Virus record (IMG/VR): IMGVR_UViG_3300042938_001064 | Span: 1-39,844 of that record | Direction: 5' to 3' (one strand) | From: a virus | DNA length: 39,844 nt | In this document: positions 9,467 through 22,051 of the stretch, in pieces | Layout of the letters: each line of letters opens with the position of its first letter | Numbering within the stretch: the stretch's first letter is position 1 | Notes under the pieces: generated by a model | What the model was told of the DNA's origin: nothing | Databases searched by the model: none | What the model saw: only the letters and a program-made list of their open reading frames with translations | Position numbers and translations under genes: made by a program

Positions 9467-11593
9467 TTACGCGTTCCCGTCGGTGATCGGGCGAGACCCG
9501 ACGATGCGTCCCGCGCCGTCGCGCAGGGCTTCACGCGGCGCACTGACCATGCGCACGGCCTGAGAAAGTTCCTGCAGCGCCCGCATGATCGTCTCGGTCT
9601 GCTGCGTCTGCGACTGCATGAGCGTGCCGACAAATTCAACCATAGCTTTCGACTCGGTTTCCTGCGTCTTCGCCTCGATGACCTTGGGGTTGTTGCTGAT
9701 CCGCTTGTCCTCGGACGCCGCAGCGCCGTCGATCTTTACCAGCTCGGTCTGCTGGTCCGCGGCTGCGATCTGCAGCTTGGTCTGGTTGTCGAGCTGCGCC
9801 TTCTGCAGCAGCGTCTGCGAGCGCATCTGCTCGGCGGCCATCACCGTTACGTCAGGCTGCGGCGGCGGGCGGGGCGGCATCTGCGAGGGGTCGGTCCAGA
9901 ACCGCTGCGGGGCGCTGAAGTCCGCGGCCTTCGTGATCTCGAGCGCGGTCTGGTAGAGGTTCTGCGCGTTGACGATCGGCAAGCCGCCCGCCATCGCCTT
10001 CTCCTGCAGCTGCGCGATCATCATCAGCCGACTGACCATCGCGTCCTTGTTGCCCGCGGCGAACCCGACGCTGATGCGCATGTCGTTGCGGGTCTTCCAC
10101 TGCGAGGGGTCGACGCTCACCCACTGCCCGCGCAGGCGCACCACCTCGGCCTGGTGGCCGGTCTTGAGCACCAGCTCGTGCGCGATGCTGAACAGCTCCT
10201 CGATCCCGGAGGCGAAGATGCGCGCCACCTGTTCGACGCGCTGGGCGGCCATCGTCGAGAGCTGCTGGATACCCGAGGCGGTCTTGTTGAGCGTGTTCTG
10301 GTCCGAGCCCTGGAAGTACCTGTTGACGCCCGTGCGCCCCTCGGTGATCTGCTCCATGAACCCGAGCGCGTCAATCGCAGCGGGGAACACGAACGGCGTG
10401 GTGACGGGCAGGAAGGATGCCCCCGGGGGGCCATCGACGCGGATGCGCTGCCCGGGGCGCGAGGTCAGCACGTCGTCGAGGTTGACCGTGTTCTTGTCGA
10501 ACGCGATGGCGGGGTTGTTCGCGAAGTACAGGTTGTCGAGCGCCTGGCGCAGGATCGCGCTCTTGATGCGCTGAATGTCGCCCGTGAGGTCGGCAACCGA
10601 CAGCCCGATGTGCCGATGCGGCAGCGGGTTCGGCACGATCGAGCTGACCGGGATGCGGCTGCACTCCTCGCGGTAGAGCACTTTCCTGCCCACCCGCAGG
10701 ACGTACTGCAGCTCCGCGATGCCGTCCTCGTCGTAGTCGTGGCGTATCCACACGCAGCGCACGCGGACCCGGCGCATCTCGGGGCTGGAGACGCCCTGCA
10801 GGTCGATCGAAGCGGCGGTGTTCTCGTTGTACTGGTCGCGCGCATCGTCCTCGAGCGCGTCGCCCTCGACGTCGTCCGGAATGTCGTCCTCGACGTCGTA
10901 GCCCTCAGCGCGCAGCGCGGAGATCGTCTTGTAGTCCCAGTACTCGAAGTAGTCGCAGCCGCGGAGGCTGAAGCTCGGCGTGTTGTGCGAGACCTTCACC
11001 CGCTCAGGCGGCAGGACCTGAAACGCCAGCTGCCGGCGCTCCTTGGTGCGCCGTAGCTCGATGTCGTACAGCTGGCCGGTTTCATCCGAGGGGTTCGCCC
11101 CCACCAGCTCCACGCCCTCGCCCTGCATGAGCATCGCAAGACCTTCTTGCGTCTGGCGCTCGTAGCGCTCGATCTCGACGTGCCGGGTCTTGTCGATATA
11201 GGCCCAGCAGTAGGCGTTCTTGGTCAGCAGGGCGTCGGTGAACCACTCGTTGCAAATCTCAAACCACTTGTTGCGCTGCGTGACGAGGTAATTGAGGTAC
11301 TCGCCCTCCTGCTTCGCGGCCGCCTCGTCCTCGGGGCCCATCGGAATGAACTCCACGATGTCCTCGCCCGAGGCGAAGATCCGGCACAGGCTCGGCAGTA
11401 TCCACTGCACGGTCTCGAACGTGGTGCGGTCCACCACAGAGGAGCGCCCGGGCGGCGCGGGGTCGACGTCCTTGCCGAGGTACAGACGGATCGCCAGGTC
11501 GCGCTCGTCCGCCAGCTCGCTCTCGGAGGTGCCGCCGTAGGCGTACTCCTCCGCGGCGTCGATCGCTGAGAGCAGTTTGTCGAAATCAGGCAT
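9467..11593 (-). CDS. Portal protein (P22 gp1-like)
   Basis: A 708-residue protein of the P22-type portal family, the dodecameric ring through which DNA enters and leaves the head. Features I recognise include an early YLGKDVDPAPPGRSSVVDRT segment, ETVQWILPSLCRIFASGEDI, a GRKVLYREECSRIPV strand region, and FVFPAAIDALGFMEQITEGR before a TGVNRYFQGSDQNTLNKTAS segment at about residues 410-450. The last 150 residues form a long helical barrel-like tail rich in Gln and Ala, as in P22. Length matches the family (about 700). The ATG at 11593 overlaps the terminase stop as TAATG. Confidence 0.92.
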   Translation of the reverse strand: MPDFDKLLSAIDAAEEYAYGGTSESELADERDLAIRLYLGKDVDPAPPGRSSVVDRTTFETVQWILPSLCRIFASGEDIVEFIPMGPEDEAAAKQEGEYLNYLVTQRNKWFEICNEWFTDALLTKNAYCWAYIDKTRHVEIERYERQTQEGLAMLMQGEGVELVGANPSDETGQLYDIELRRTKERRQLAFQVLPPERVKVSHNTPSFSLRGCDYFEYWDYKTISALRAEGYDVEDDIPDDVEGDALEDDARDQYNENTAASIDLQGVSSPEMRRVRVRCVWIRHDYDEDGIAELQYVLRVGRKVLYREECSRIPVSSIVPNPLPHRHIGLSVADLTGDIQRIKSAILRQALDNLYFANNPAIAFDKNTVNLDDVLTSRPGQRIRVDGPPGASFLPVTTPFVFPAAIDALGFMEQITEGRTGVNRYFQGSDQNTLNKTASGIQQLSTMAAQRVEQVARIFASGIEELFSIAHELVLKTGHQAEVVRLRGQWVSVDPSQWKTRNDMRISVGFAAGNKDAMVSRLMMIAQLQEKAMAGGLPIVNAQNLYQTALEITKAADFSAPQRFWTDPSQMPPRPPPQPDVTVMAAEQMRSQTLLQKAQLDNQTKLQIAAADQQTELVKIDGAAASEDKRISNNPKVIEAKTQETESKAMVEFVGTLMQSQTQQTETIMRALQELSQAVRMVSAPREALRDGAGRIVGSRPITDGNA

Positions 11594-19388: not shown

Positions 19389-19894
19389 TTGCGCCGCATC
19401 CCGGCGAGCAGCGCCTTCACCGGGTTGTCGCGGGCGAGCGCCGGCAGCTCCTCGCGGATGTCGGTCGCCTCGCGGATCTCGCTGTAGTTCGCCGTGAACC
19501 GTCGCTCAAGGAACCGCAGGTCCTCGTCGGTGGCATGCCCGATGATCTGCCACCCTCCGATCGCGCGAACGGCACGGTCGACGTCTGCGGGCGCTGCAGG
19601 GCCGTCGCGATGGCGGCCCTTGCGGACGTGCTCGAGCGCGAGCGCCCAGGCCTCCCCGGGGGTGACGCGATTCGCGGCTTGGCGCAGCTGCTGGAAGTGC
19701 CAGGGGTTCGGGAAGAACTGCTCGGTGAGCGTCAGTCGCTGGGCAGCCTGGCGGAACTCCGCGATCGTCCAGTCGGTGAGCGCTCCGAACCACATGTCGA
19801 GCGCCTCCGGGGTGATCTTGCCGCCGGGTTTGAGTTCGGCGAGCGCGACCAGGATGCGGGCCATTTCGGCGCGGTCACTGTGCTGCATTGCCAT
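19385..19894 (-). CDS. Putative replication protein, helicase-loader type (169 aa)
   Basis: A 169-residue helical protein. The opening helices (RAEMARILVALAELKPGGKI), TPEALDMWFGALTDWTIAEF and FFPNPWHFQQLRQAAN resemble the N-terminal region of phage helicase loaders of the G39P or replisome-organiser type, which hand the host helicase to the origin. It has no ATPase motif, which fits G39P-like rather than DnaC-like proteins. It follows, and overlaps by 20 bases, the O-like gene, matching the lambda O-P order. The call rests on shape, motif feel and position. Confidence 0.5.
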   Translation of the reverse strand: MAMQHSDRAEMARILVALAELKPGGKITPEALDMWFGALTDWTIAEFRQAAQRLTLTEQFFPNPWHFQQLRQAANRVTPGEAWALALEHVRKGRHRDGPAAPADVDRAVRAIGGWQIIGHATDEDLRFLERRFTANYSEIREATDIREELPALARDNPVKALLAGMRRK

Positions 19895-20699
19895 CCCCTG
19901 CGAGCCACGCCTGCGCGGCTGCGATGTTGGAGCTTTGCGCGGCGACCGACTTGGTGGGAGGAAGCGGCCAAGGCTGCGACCAGGGTGCGTCCGGGTCGCC
20001 GAAAAAGCGGGCGGGGTTCAGCACCATCCGGTTCGTGGCAGTGACCAATCGCACGTAGCGCTGGACGCCTTCGTGCATCTGCTGCCAGGTAGCGCCGCGC
20101 TCGATCTGCCGCCGGATGTGGTGCTCTGCCGTGATCCAGTCCGTGCGGCCGGAGTGCGGCGGGTACTGAGCCTTCAGCGCTTCGATTTCGCGCCGCTCGT
20201 CGTCCTCCGCGCGTGCGATTTTCGCCCCGGGGAACGTAGAGATCACACACAAGGAACTAGGAGGGTGATTAGGTATATCTGTCTGGAGTCTGGAGTCTGG
20301 AGTCTGGAGAGGTGAGGCGTTCGTTGAACGATTCGTTGCACGACTCGTGCTCGGTTCGTGCTCATTGCGGGGCGCCTTGCGCTTGGCCTCTCGCTCCACG
20401 GCGATGCGACGATTCGTGCCTCGCTGCTCGTCCGCTTTGGCGATCTCGAGCTTCGCCCTGGCGTTGGTCCACCCGTCTTGCTCGAGCGCCCAGAACTCGG
20501 CGAGAACTCGCTTGATCGCATCGCGATCCGCCTTCGACGCTGCCCCCACCAGTCGGGCCAACTGGGTCATGTCGGTCGGGAGCGGCCGCTCGGTGGCGTA
20601 GAAATGATCCAGCAGCGCCCGATACGCGCCCCGCTCGATCAGCGACAGGTGACCCGTGTCGCGCTGGAAGTCCCCGATGAAGTGCTTGTAGAAGTTCAC
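19875..20699 (-). CDS. O-like replication initiator (DUF1376 N-terminus)
   Basis: A 274-residue protein. The first 90 residues are the DUF1376 domain (MNFYKHFIGDFQRDTGHLSL, then GAYRALLDHFYATERPLP), found at the start of many phage replication initiators. Residues about 90-150 are a basic, low-complexity linker coded by the repeat-rich segment 20281-20363. The C-terminal region (TDWITAEHHIRRQIERG, then NPARFFGD) is the usual second part of O-like proteins. It is expected to bind the origin and recruit the loader coded next. Start ATG 20699 overlaps the HTH gene as ATGA. Confidence 0.7.
   Translation of the reverse strand: MNFYKHFIGDFQRDTGHLSLIERGAYRALLDHFYATERPLPTDMTQLARLVGAASKADRDAIKRVLAEFWALEQDGWTNARAKLEIAKADEQRGTNRRIAVEREAKRKAPRNEHEPSTSRATNRSTNASPLQTPDSRLQTDIPNHPPSSLCVISTFPGAKIARAEDDERREIEALKAQYPPHSGRTDWITAEHHIRRQIERGATWQQMHEGVQRYVRLVTATNRMVLNPARFFGDPDAPWSQPWPLPPTKSVAAQSSNIAAAQAWLAGDGNAAQ
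20281..20308. repeat. Four exact 7-base tandem repeats inside the O-like gene
   Basis: The unit GTCTGGA occurs four times in a row. The sequence just before it (20240-20280) is AT-richer than its surroundings. Tandem repeats inside the initiator gene are how lambda-type phages mark their replication origin, so this is an origin candidate. Confidence 0.8.
20318..20363. repeat. Four imperfect iterons about 11 bases apart inside the O-like gene
   Basis: Units start at 20318, 20329, 20341 and 20352, that is every 11-12 bases or about one helical turn. They read CGTTCGTTG, CGATTCGTTGC, CGACTCGTGC and CGGTTCGTGC; consensus CG-N-TTCGT-(T)-GC. They could be initiator-binding sites beside the 7-base tandem repeat. 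Confidence 0.55.
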
Positions 20700-20917
20700 G
20701 AGGGGAACAACCCCCGCTGCACCGGTCCGACGAGCCGATACCGGGCGTAGCGCTTCCCACCCTGCCTCTCGATCACGGTCTCGATGGGCAGGCCCTCCTC
20801 CCGCAGCTCGTCGATGCGGGCGGCGAGGCGGAAGCAGCCGTAGCGGTTCAGCGCGTCGAGCGCCGTCAGCTCGCTACCGCTCAAAAGTGCGGCGCGGATG
20901 CATTCGGTCTGTGTCAT
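20696..20917 (-). CDS. Helix-turn-helix protein (73 aa)
   Basis: A 73-residue protein starting MTQTECIRAALLSGSELTAL and continuing with a NRYGCFRLAARIDELREEGL helix-turn-helix and a beta-wing-like end (IERQGGKRYARYRL). I recall this as the short HTH domain family found ahead of replication genes in many phages. It is the first gene after the operator-bearing promoter at 20935-20963 and overlaps the O-like gene as ATGA. It likely regulates the operon or helps replication. Confidence 0.65.
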   Translation of the reverse strand: MTQTECIRAALLSGSELTALDALNRYGCFRLAARIDELREEGLPIETVIERQGGKRYARYRLVGPVQRGLFPS

Positions 20918-20934: not shown

Positions 20935-20963
20935 CTTATCCAAAGGATTACCCTCTGAGTAAA
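20935..20963 (-). promoter_or_regulatory. Promoter with operator for the leftward replication operon
   Basis: Minus-strand TTTACT (20963-20958), 17 bases, GATAAG (20940-20935). The operator-like TTACCCTCTGAGTA at 20948-20961 (one mismatch to TTACC-N5-GGTA) covers the -35 box. The start of transcription would be near 20928, eleven bases before the HTH gene. Confidence 0.5.
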
Positions 20964-21193
20964 GAAAGCTCGGCCGACCGGCCCAACGCCGAGGGCGCCC
21001 AGATGTCGGGGCGCAGCTCGTGCAGGCCCACCTGGCCGTCGGTGGCGGCGAAGATTTTCTTGGCCATGGCGGGACCGACCCGCTTGTGCCCAAGACGGAG
21101 GAGCCGGACATATCCCGGCGTCGTTCCGATCGTCAGCGCGAAGGCGTCGCGGTCCGGGGCGGGTAGGCTCTGCAGGAATTTCTGGAGGTTCAT
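20948..21193 (-). CDS. Cro / YdaS-like regulator
   Basis: An 81-residue protein from ATG 21193. LTIGTTPGYVRLLRLGHKRV at about residues 18-37 is the helix-turn-helix, and GQVGLHELRPDIW matches the conserved end of Cro/YdaS-like phage proteins. It would repress the repressor promoter and tune early genes. It is divergent from the repressor-like gene, the usual lambda order. The predicted promoter puts the RNA start within a base or two of the ATG and no ribosome binding site is visible, so the mRNA may be leaderless. Longer starts would lie inside the promoter. The stop codon is within the operator at 20948. Confidence 0.75.
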   Translation of the reverse strand: MNLQKFLQSLPAPDRDAFALTIGTTPGYVRLLRLGHKRVGPAMAKKIFAATDGQVGLHELRPDIWAPSALGRSAELSLLRG

Positions 21194-21200
21194 GCCGTGA

Positions 21201-21229
21201 AGATTACCCAGCAGGTGCATCAGATGCAA
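21201..21229 (-). promoter_or_regulatory. PR-like promoter with operator (cro direction)
   Basis: Minus-strand TTGCAT (21229-21224), 17 bases, TAATCT (21206-21201). The operator-like TTACCCAGCAGGTG at 21204-21217 overlaps the -10 box, so a bound repressor would block it. Confidence 0.6.
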
Positions 21230-21251
21230 CCGAAATGCACCCAGCCGCTCA

Positions 21252-21287
21252 TTTCACCCTTCGGTGCAGAAAGTTACATTTGGGGTA
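21252..21287 (+). promoter_or_regulatory. PRM-like promoter region with operator (repressor direction)
   Basis: TTTCAC (21252) and TACATT (21275) are 17 bases apart and match the consensus poorly, as promoters that need activation often do. The operator-like TTACATTTGGGGTA at 21274-21287 covers the -10 box and reaches the first base of the start codon. A separate perfect dyad CACC-N4-GGTG lies at 21255-21266. Confidence 0.4.
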
Positions 21288-21745
21288 TGGACATTTACGA
21301 GATCCGTCGCAACAATCTTCGAGTACTGGTCGAGGCGCTCGGTGAAGGCAAGCAGGCCCGCGTGGCCGAAAAGCTGGAAAGACCGGCGAATCTCATCAGC
21401 CGTTACCTGAAAACGAAGAAGATTGGCGACGACATGGCGCGCCACATTGAGGCGGTCTACGAGTTGCAGCCCGGCTGCATGGATAGGCCCTTCGAGGCGC
21501 CCGCCGCCGGGGAGACGATCATTCTGTACGGCATACCGGTGACCAAGGACTCGGTCGACGTCGCGCACGAGATCGACAAGCTGCCGAAGGAAATGCGCGA
21601 GCAGGTGGCCTCCCTGGTGCACAGCATGGTCAAGCACCACAAGCTGGCGCAGCGGATGCGCAAGCCCCCGTTGCAATCCGGTGGTGCAGGTGATACCCCC
21701 CCCCCCCACTCGCAACAAAGTCTCAATGAGCTGACGGGCGACTAA
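21287..21745 (+). CDS. CI-like repressor without a peptidase domain (152 aa)
   Basis: A 152-residue protein from ATG 21287. Residues about 20-55 (GKQARVAEKLERPANLISRY, then LKTKKIGDDMARHIE) are a helix-turn-helix domain. The C-terminal half has helices (DVAHEIDKLPKEMREQVASL) and no Ser/Lys S24 peptidase region, so RecA-driven self-cleavage is not expected. It is divergent from cro and faces operators on both flanks. The only ribosome-binding-like signal is a G run directly before the ATG; a leaderless or weakly translated message is likely. A 12-C run near the 3' end codes for part of the tail. Confidence 0.72.
   Translation: MDIYEIRRNNLRVLVEALGEGKQARVAEKLERPANLISRYLKTKKIGDDMARHIEAVYELQPGCMDRPFEAPAAGETIILYGIPVTKDSVDVAHEIDKLPKEMREQVASLVHSMVKHHKLAQRMRKPPLQSGGAGDTPPPHSQQSLNELTGD
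21696..21707 (+). repeat. 12-C homopolymer near the 3' end of the repressor gene
   Basis: Twelve consecutive C within codons 137-141. Loss or gain of one C would change only the last 8-12 residues, since stop codons follow soon in the other frames. It is either a slippage site or a place where base calling may be wrong. Confidence 0.85.
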
Positions 21746-21774
21746 ACCTGCGCGGTTCGCTCCGCTTCGAAAGT

Positions 21775-21788
21775 TTACCTACGGGGTA
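21775..21788. promoter_or_regulatory. Operator-like site OL1 (TTACC-N5-GGTA)
   Basis: TTACCTACGGGGTA, directly before the -35 box of the strong plus-strand promoter. Matches the shared motif exactly. Confidence 0.65.
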
Positions 21789-21816
21789 TTGACTAAGATT
21801 ACCCGTCCGGTATAGT
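21789..21816 (+). promoter_or_regulatory. Strong PL-like promoter of the recombination/integration operon
   Basis: TTGACT (21789-21794), 16 bases, TATAGT (21811-21816): the best sigma-70 match in the window. Transcription would start near 21823. It is bracketed by two operator-like sites, so it should be shut off in the lysogen. Confidence 0.75.
21799..21812. promoter_or_regulatory. Operator-like site OL2 (TTACC-N5-GGTA)
   Basis: TTACCCGTCCGGTA, between the -35 and -10 boxes and overlapping the -10 by two bases. Matches the shared motif exactly; its start is 24 bases from the start of the neighbouring site. Confidence 0.65.
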
Positions 21817-21838: not shown

Positions 21839-22051
21839 ATGCAGCTCGCAACCCGCCGACTCGACCCTGTCTCAGCCGACGACCACCTCGACCTCGACGA
21901 GGACGAGCTGCGGCTCGTGGCGCTGTGGCGCCGCGCCCGCGCCCTCCGCCGCCAGGCCGAGGAGCGCTTCCGGGAGCACAACGAGGCCGACCGCCTCTGC
22001 AACCTCGCGCTGACGGACATCGAGATGATGTGCCGGGAGTTCGAGACGTGA
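21839..22051 (+). CDS. First gene of the rightward early operon, hypothetical (70 aa)
   Basis: A 70-residue, strongly charged helical protein (DDHLDLDEDELRLVALWRRA, then RALRRQAEERFREHNEADR) with a near-perfect ribosome binding site (AGGAGG, six bases before the ATG). The position right after PL is where lambda has N, but the protein lacks a clear Arg-rich N-terminal RNA-binding arm, so I do not call it N. It overlaps the next gene as GTGA. Confidence 0.6.
   Translation: MQLATRRLDPVSADDHLDLDEDELRLVALWRRARALRRQAEERFREHNEADRLCNLALTDIEMMCREFET

Follow-up and report, generated by a model that had tools for sequence, protein, structure and literature searches.

A probable TTACC-N5-GGTAA operator family of the epsilon15 Rep type in a predicted phage immunity region, with a candidate cro-distal site

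In phage lambda, the repressor and Cro both read the same operator sites. In Salmonella phage epsilon15, TTACC-N5-GGTAA occurs five times without mismatch, and three of these sites, in the region of the early promoter PL, are annotated as repressor binding sites. The related SPC32H Rep is a tetramer when it binds DNA, and the type of tetramerisation domain that it carries brings about DNA looping in another repressor (PMC9638917, PMC9986798); phage TP901-1 has a third CI operator within the distal portion of mor (PMC7250872). Here we analyse the region between the replication genes and PL of IMG/VR virus record IMGVR_UViG_3300042938_001064, whose entire 39,844 bp we call the window, and find that its repressor-operator switch is of the same kind as that of epsilon15. 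This conclusion is well supported and mostly ordinary, the operator belonging to a known repressor family.

Palindromic sites in the switch region

An earlier note on this DNA, made from the letters alone, listed five related sites of the form TTACC-N5-GGTA at 20948, 21204, 21274, 21775 and 21799, and all five are present at these positions. Counting this motif with at most one mismatch on both strands of the whole window returns 10 matches where 1.2 are expected, a number reached in 0 of 100 shuffles; eight of these belong to the five sites, three of which match on both strands, and only the matches at 9736 and 32238 fall outside the switch region. The true repeat unit is a 15-bp palindrome, TTACC-N5-GGTAA, which at one mismatch or fewer occurs three times in the whole window (20948, 21775 and 21799), always in the switch region, against 0.087 expected from whole-window shuffles. 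With up to two mismatches there are five in the 1-kb region as compared to 0.18 expected (0 of 2000 shuffles). These counts rule out a chance or genome-wide repeat, and as the window is the complete record, the phage's own genome holds no further motif copies. The sites, none of which has a strand, are as follows, with palindrome scores out of 10.

20948-20962: candidate cro-distal, OD-like operator TTACCCTCTGAGTAA, score 9, overlapping the cro stop codon
21204-21218: predicted right operator (OR) TTACCCAGCAGGTGC, score 8, over the -10 box of the cro promoter PR, where relatives also carry an operator
21274-21288: weak operator-like site TTACATTTGGGGTAT, score 8, over the -10 box of the repressor promoter PRM and the repressor start codon; may be chance
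21775-21789: predicted first left operator (OL1) TTACCTACGGGGTAT, score 9, abutting the PL -35 box; the module TTACC-N4/5-GGTATTGAC is kept in relatives
21799-21813: predicted second left operator (OL2) TTACCCGTCCGGTAT, score 9, between the PL -35 and -10 boxes; second half of the conserved module

The repressor family and the reader of the operators

Two regulator genes diverge between these sites.

21287-21745, plus strand: repressor of 152 residues with an epsilon15/SPC32H Rep-type helix-turn-helix (HTH), assigned from sequence, profile and fold matches
20948-21193, minus strand: Cro/YdaS-like protein of 81 residues, a credible HTH protein

The repressor matches SPC32H Rep both by phmmer (3e-5 to 5d50) and by hhalign (97.8%), and its best Foldseek match is again 5d50, the SPC32H Rep-Ant complex. 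AlphaFold predicts a confident HTH, with a predicted local distance difference test score of about 90-97 over residues 1-70 and the recognition helix at residues 34-42, followed by a beta-alpha C-terminal part of middling confidence. By its N-terminal HTH homology, the protein belongs to the epsilon15/SPC32H Rep family or is closely related to it; an S24 autocleavage domain gave no match in its 152 residues in either Pfam or PHROGs. Near the 3' end of the gene is a run of 12 C (21696-21707), a possible slippage site or sequencing error, and a change in its length would alter the last residues of the protein.

The earlier note had taken the operator to be this phage's own, a view that does not survive comparison: epsilon15-type phages have the same motif and layout, and dozens of relatives have them with an operator centre of 4 bp, >40 carrying TTACC-N4-GGTAA at matching positions. 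Over 59 distinct loci (58 relatives and the window), ACC-N4-GGT reaches 2.97 per kb next to the repressor vs 0.32, and ACC-N5-GGT 0.94 vs 0.27; spacers N2, N3, N6, N7 and N8 show no enrichment beside the repressor in these loci, and N9 rises about twofold on only 12 hits. In the majority of N4 relatives, OR sites lie near -73, -49 and -34 and two OL sites form the pair TTACC-N4-GGTATTGAC...TTACC-N4-GGTA; the window OL, TTACCTACGGGGTATTGACTAAGATTACCCGTCCGGTA, is the N5 version of this PL module. A scan of IMG/VR for the N5 module by DNA only finds eight contigs, most with further matching sites upstream; an IRR-type repressor is recognised in three of them (L122, L124 and L125), and one, L121, shows neither further sites nor such a repressor. 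Alignment-based scans with nine divergent repressors offered no conserved stretches to work with.

We find that the length of the operator centre follows a single position of the repressor's recognition helix. Where operators were automatically assigned to the N4 class, this residue is Tyr or Phe in 36 of 36 repressors (in three, the script picked the wrong residue, which was corrected on visual inspection of the sequence), and none of the 22 repressors with N5 operators has an aromatic residue there. Eleven loci, the window among them, were left unassigned by the automatic rule; the window is taken as N5 from its five sites, and carries Leu36. A tree of the family needs three changes of class, two of them forced by supported branches, and places the N5 locus L211, which has Glu at this position, within the N4 clade. 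The association was found by looking and rests on few independent events, making it support and not proof. Two other candidate determinants fail: loop length after the recognition helix, given that L052, L056 and L072 combine short loops with N4 sites, and a Trp or Tyr after the conserved Arg as a mark of N5, which is contradicted by SfV-type repressors and by L211.

Since centre length tracks a residue of the repressor, the repressor is the likely reader of the operators, and on these sequence grounds the five sites are very probably operators of the protein encoded at 21287-21745. That the family belongs to Cro instead, or is shared equally by the two proteins as in lambda, is unlikely, even though the Cro-like protein is a credible HTH protein: the centre length follows the recognition helix of the repressor, the motif is retained among phages with different cro-like genes (for example, epsilon15 gp39), and OR contains a separate TGCACC cluster that makes a better candidate for Cro. 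This cluster, a set of putative Cro-specific sites, consists of TGCACC/GGTGCA half-sites within 21214-21268, at 21214 (minus), 21236 (plus) and 21263 (minus), plus TGCAACC at 21225, the first three in order of position standing at 11-bp steps.

Promoters and gene layout

Four promoters are proposed around the sites.

21789-21816, plus strand: PL, TTGACT-16-TATAGT, from a promoter scan (10 of 12) and conserved in relatives
21201-21229, minus strand: PR, for cro, TTGCAT-17-TAATCT, read by eye; the layout matches that of relatives
21252-21280, plus strand: PRM, TTTCAC-17-TACATT, 6 nt before the repressor ATG, read by eye; the -10 position is as in 47 relatives
20935-20963, minus strand: proposed replication promoter, TTTACT-17-GATAAG, doubtful, with weak hexamers

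In 47 loci, the hexamer spanning 12 to 7 nt upstream of the repressor ATG resembles a -10 box, with A at -11 in 43/47 and T at -7 in 44/47. With the family's -10 box 6 nt upstream, transcription is expected to start at or next to the ATG, and so the repressor mRNA is expected to be leaderless; the sequences imply this for the family as a whole.

Most easily questioned of the five sites is 21274, whose letters are shared with TACATT, the PRM -10 hexamer, and with GGTATG at the repressor start codon. That it reflects only this box and start codon context, the real array having four sites, is a serious possibility, if one we hold at somewhat below even. The site scores 8 of 10, a level at which 0.18 sites are expected per kb, and OR3 of the relatives begins at -34 over the PRM -35 box, exactly where the window has TTTCACCCTTCGGTGCAG; the window sequence there, TTTCACC-CTTC-GGTGCA, contains no TTACC site, and 21274 lies some 20 bp further on. 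Set against this, a weak site is present near -39 in epsilon15-like phages too, and ordinary autoregulation would follow from an operator over the -10 box.

The neighbouring genes are listed below.

20696-20917, minus strand: winged-helix HTH_39 protein (Pfam, 9e-13), first gene after cro
19875-20699, minus strand: DUF1376 primosomal/replication protein, from its domain assignment
after PL, plus strand: open reading frame of 70 residues, with AGGAGG at 21839
22448, 23191 and 25846, plus strand, downstream of PL: RecT-like protein, Gp157/Gam-like protein and integrase, respectively

We thus recover the lambda-type immunity region put forward earlier: repressor and cro diverge, predicted operators lie over PR and PRM, and a PL predicted to be under operator control is codirectional with the repressor. 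DNA similarity to annotated phages is limited to a 65-bp patch in RecT, and the window contains no LexA-like box of the form CTGT-N8-ACAG.

The cro-distal operator and related switches

The earlier note also placed an operator beyond cro, in front of the replication genes. This is credible, as 20948 scores 9 of 10 and epsilon15-type phages have an operator in the same interval, TTACC-N5-GGT(A/G)T, positioned 68 bp beyond the end of the cro-like gene. The eight arm bases of that site (TTACC and GGT) are invariant in every aligned copy (57 distinct sequences), and variants make up a mean of 35% per column in the centre as against 16% in the flanks (resampling P=0.0005, a value that is indicative given that the sequences are related). 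One epsilon15-type locus, L171, has a one-base deletion in the operator centre. Invariant arms between a variable centre and variable flanks show that the cro-distal operator is kept by selection in epsilon15-type phages. It lies at 2035-2049 in L037 and 2543-2557 in L168, carries no annotation in the examined stretch of the epsilon15 record, and adjoins a fully conserved AAAAAAGATCAACCGTAT block. A second epsilon15 match, at -529 before gp40, was taken for a probable Shine-Dalgarno sequence and disregarded.

The earlier note had the operators sitting on early promoters; the placement of the operator family there holds, while the replication promoter that 20948 was thought to cover is weak and was not reported by the promoter scan of the window. 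We consider it rather improbable that 20948 is a classical operator directly occluding this separate promoter. The site does overlap the proposed -35 box, and an RBS-like GAGG and the ATG of the HTH_39 gene come after it; the -10 box, GATAAG, lacks the final T, the transcript would begin at or inside the likely Shine-Dalgarno sequence, and the epsilon15-type distal site lies over no evident promoter box. An OD-like role for 20948, argued from analogy with TP901-1, we judge to be evenly poised; bridging by the repressor is plausible because SPC32H Rep is a tetramer with a domain of the DNA-looping type.

Taken together, the most probable explanation is a temperate-phage immunity region in which a Rep-type repressor acts on TTACC-N5-GGTAA palindromes, with an OD-like distal site. 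The short repressor would bind the 15-bp palindromes, at OL1 and OL2 to shut PL (recombination genes and integrase) and at 21204 to shut PR (cro and replication genes), and, at PRM, the repressor may tune its own expression through the weak site at 21274. Repressor at 20948, probably as an oligomer together with OR, would most likely tighten the shut-off of PR and block read-through into the replication genes. Several observations weigh against this explanation. The repressor's C-terminus matches the TetDloop tetramerisation domain only weakly (hhalign probability 8.9%, E 0.0037); in about 50 N4-type relatives, operator matches within 250 bp of the end of cro do not exceed chance; the epsilon15 site is 68 bp past cro and not at the stop codon; and no close relative of the window phage was found, 369 genomes searched giving one more N5 relative, L211. 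The absence from the N4 relatives excludes a cro-distal operator as a general family feature, and common descent of the window and epsilon15 distal sites does not follow, their positions being different. Only tentatively do we propose the wider generalisation that a single recognition-helix position sets the operator centre in this family (aromatic, 4 bp; non-aromatic, 5 bp) and that proteobacterial phages whose Rep-type repressors are short and peptidase-free repeatedly use a cro-distal operator as a third point of control.

These findings connect a previously unstudied phage switch with a repressor family of solved structure, predict where the phage's repressor binds, and relate operator spacing to a single repressor residue in a way that can be tested. 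With the conserved cro-distal operator of epsilon15-type phages, distal control in the style of TP901-1 also becomes testable in well-known laboratory phages.

Compared with lambda, the window shares divergent repressor and cro genes, a PL codirectional with the repressor, operators on early promoters and a PRM predicted to give a leaderless repressor mRNA; it differs in operator sequence, in having two OL sites, one or two OR sites and one distal site rather than three plus three, and in a repressor in which no S24 autocleavage domain was found. TP901-1, with its OR, OL and OD, resembles the window in the position of the distal site, 20948-20962 overlapping the cro stop codon, and in a repressor made of an HTH and a C-terminal region, for oligomerisation in TP901-1 and putatively so in the window. 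It is, however, a Gram-positive phage with an unrelated operator sequence and a CI-MOR complex, and the likeness proposed is one of working. The N4-type relatives (e.g., Pseudomonas phage PseuP_224) have the same repressor HTH family, OR and OL placement and GGTATTGAC PL module, but a 4-bp operator centre, in most cases an S24-length C-terminus, and no cro-distal operator. The epsilon15/SPC32H Rep switch (Uetakevirus) has more sites, a longer repressor of 198 residues, a cro-like gene that looks unrelated to that of the window and a distal operator lying further past cro, yet it shares with the window a homologous repressor HTH, the TTACC-N5-GGTAA operator both in PL and between cro and the repressor, and a cro-distal operator preceding the next gene.
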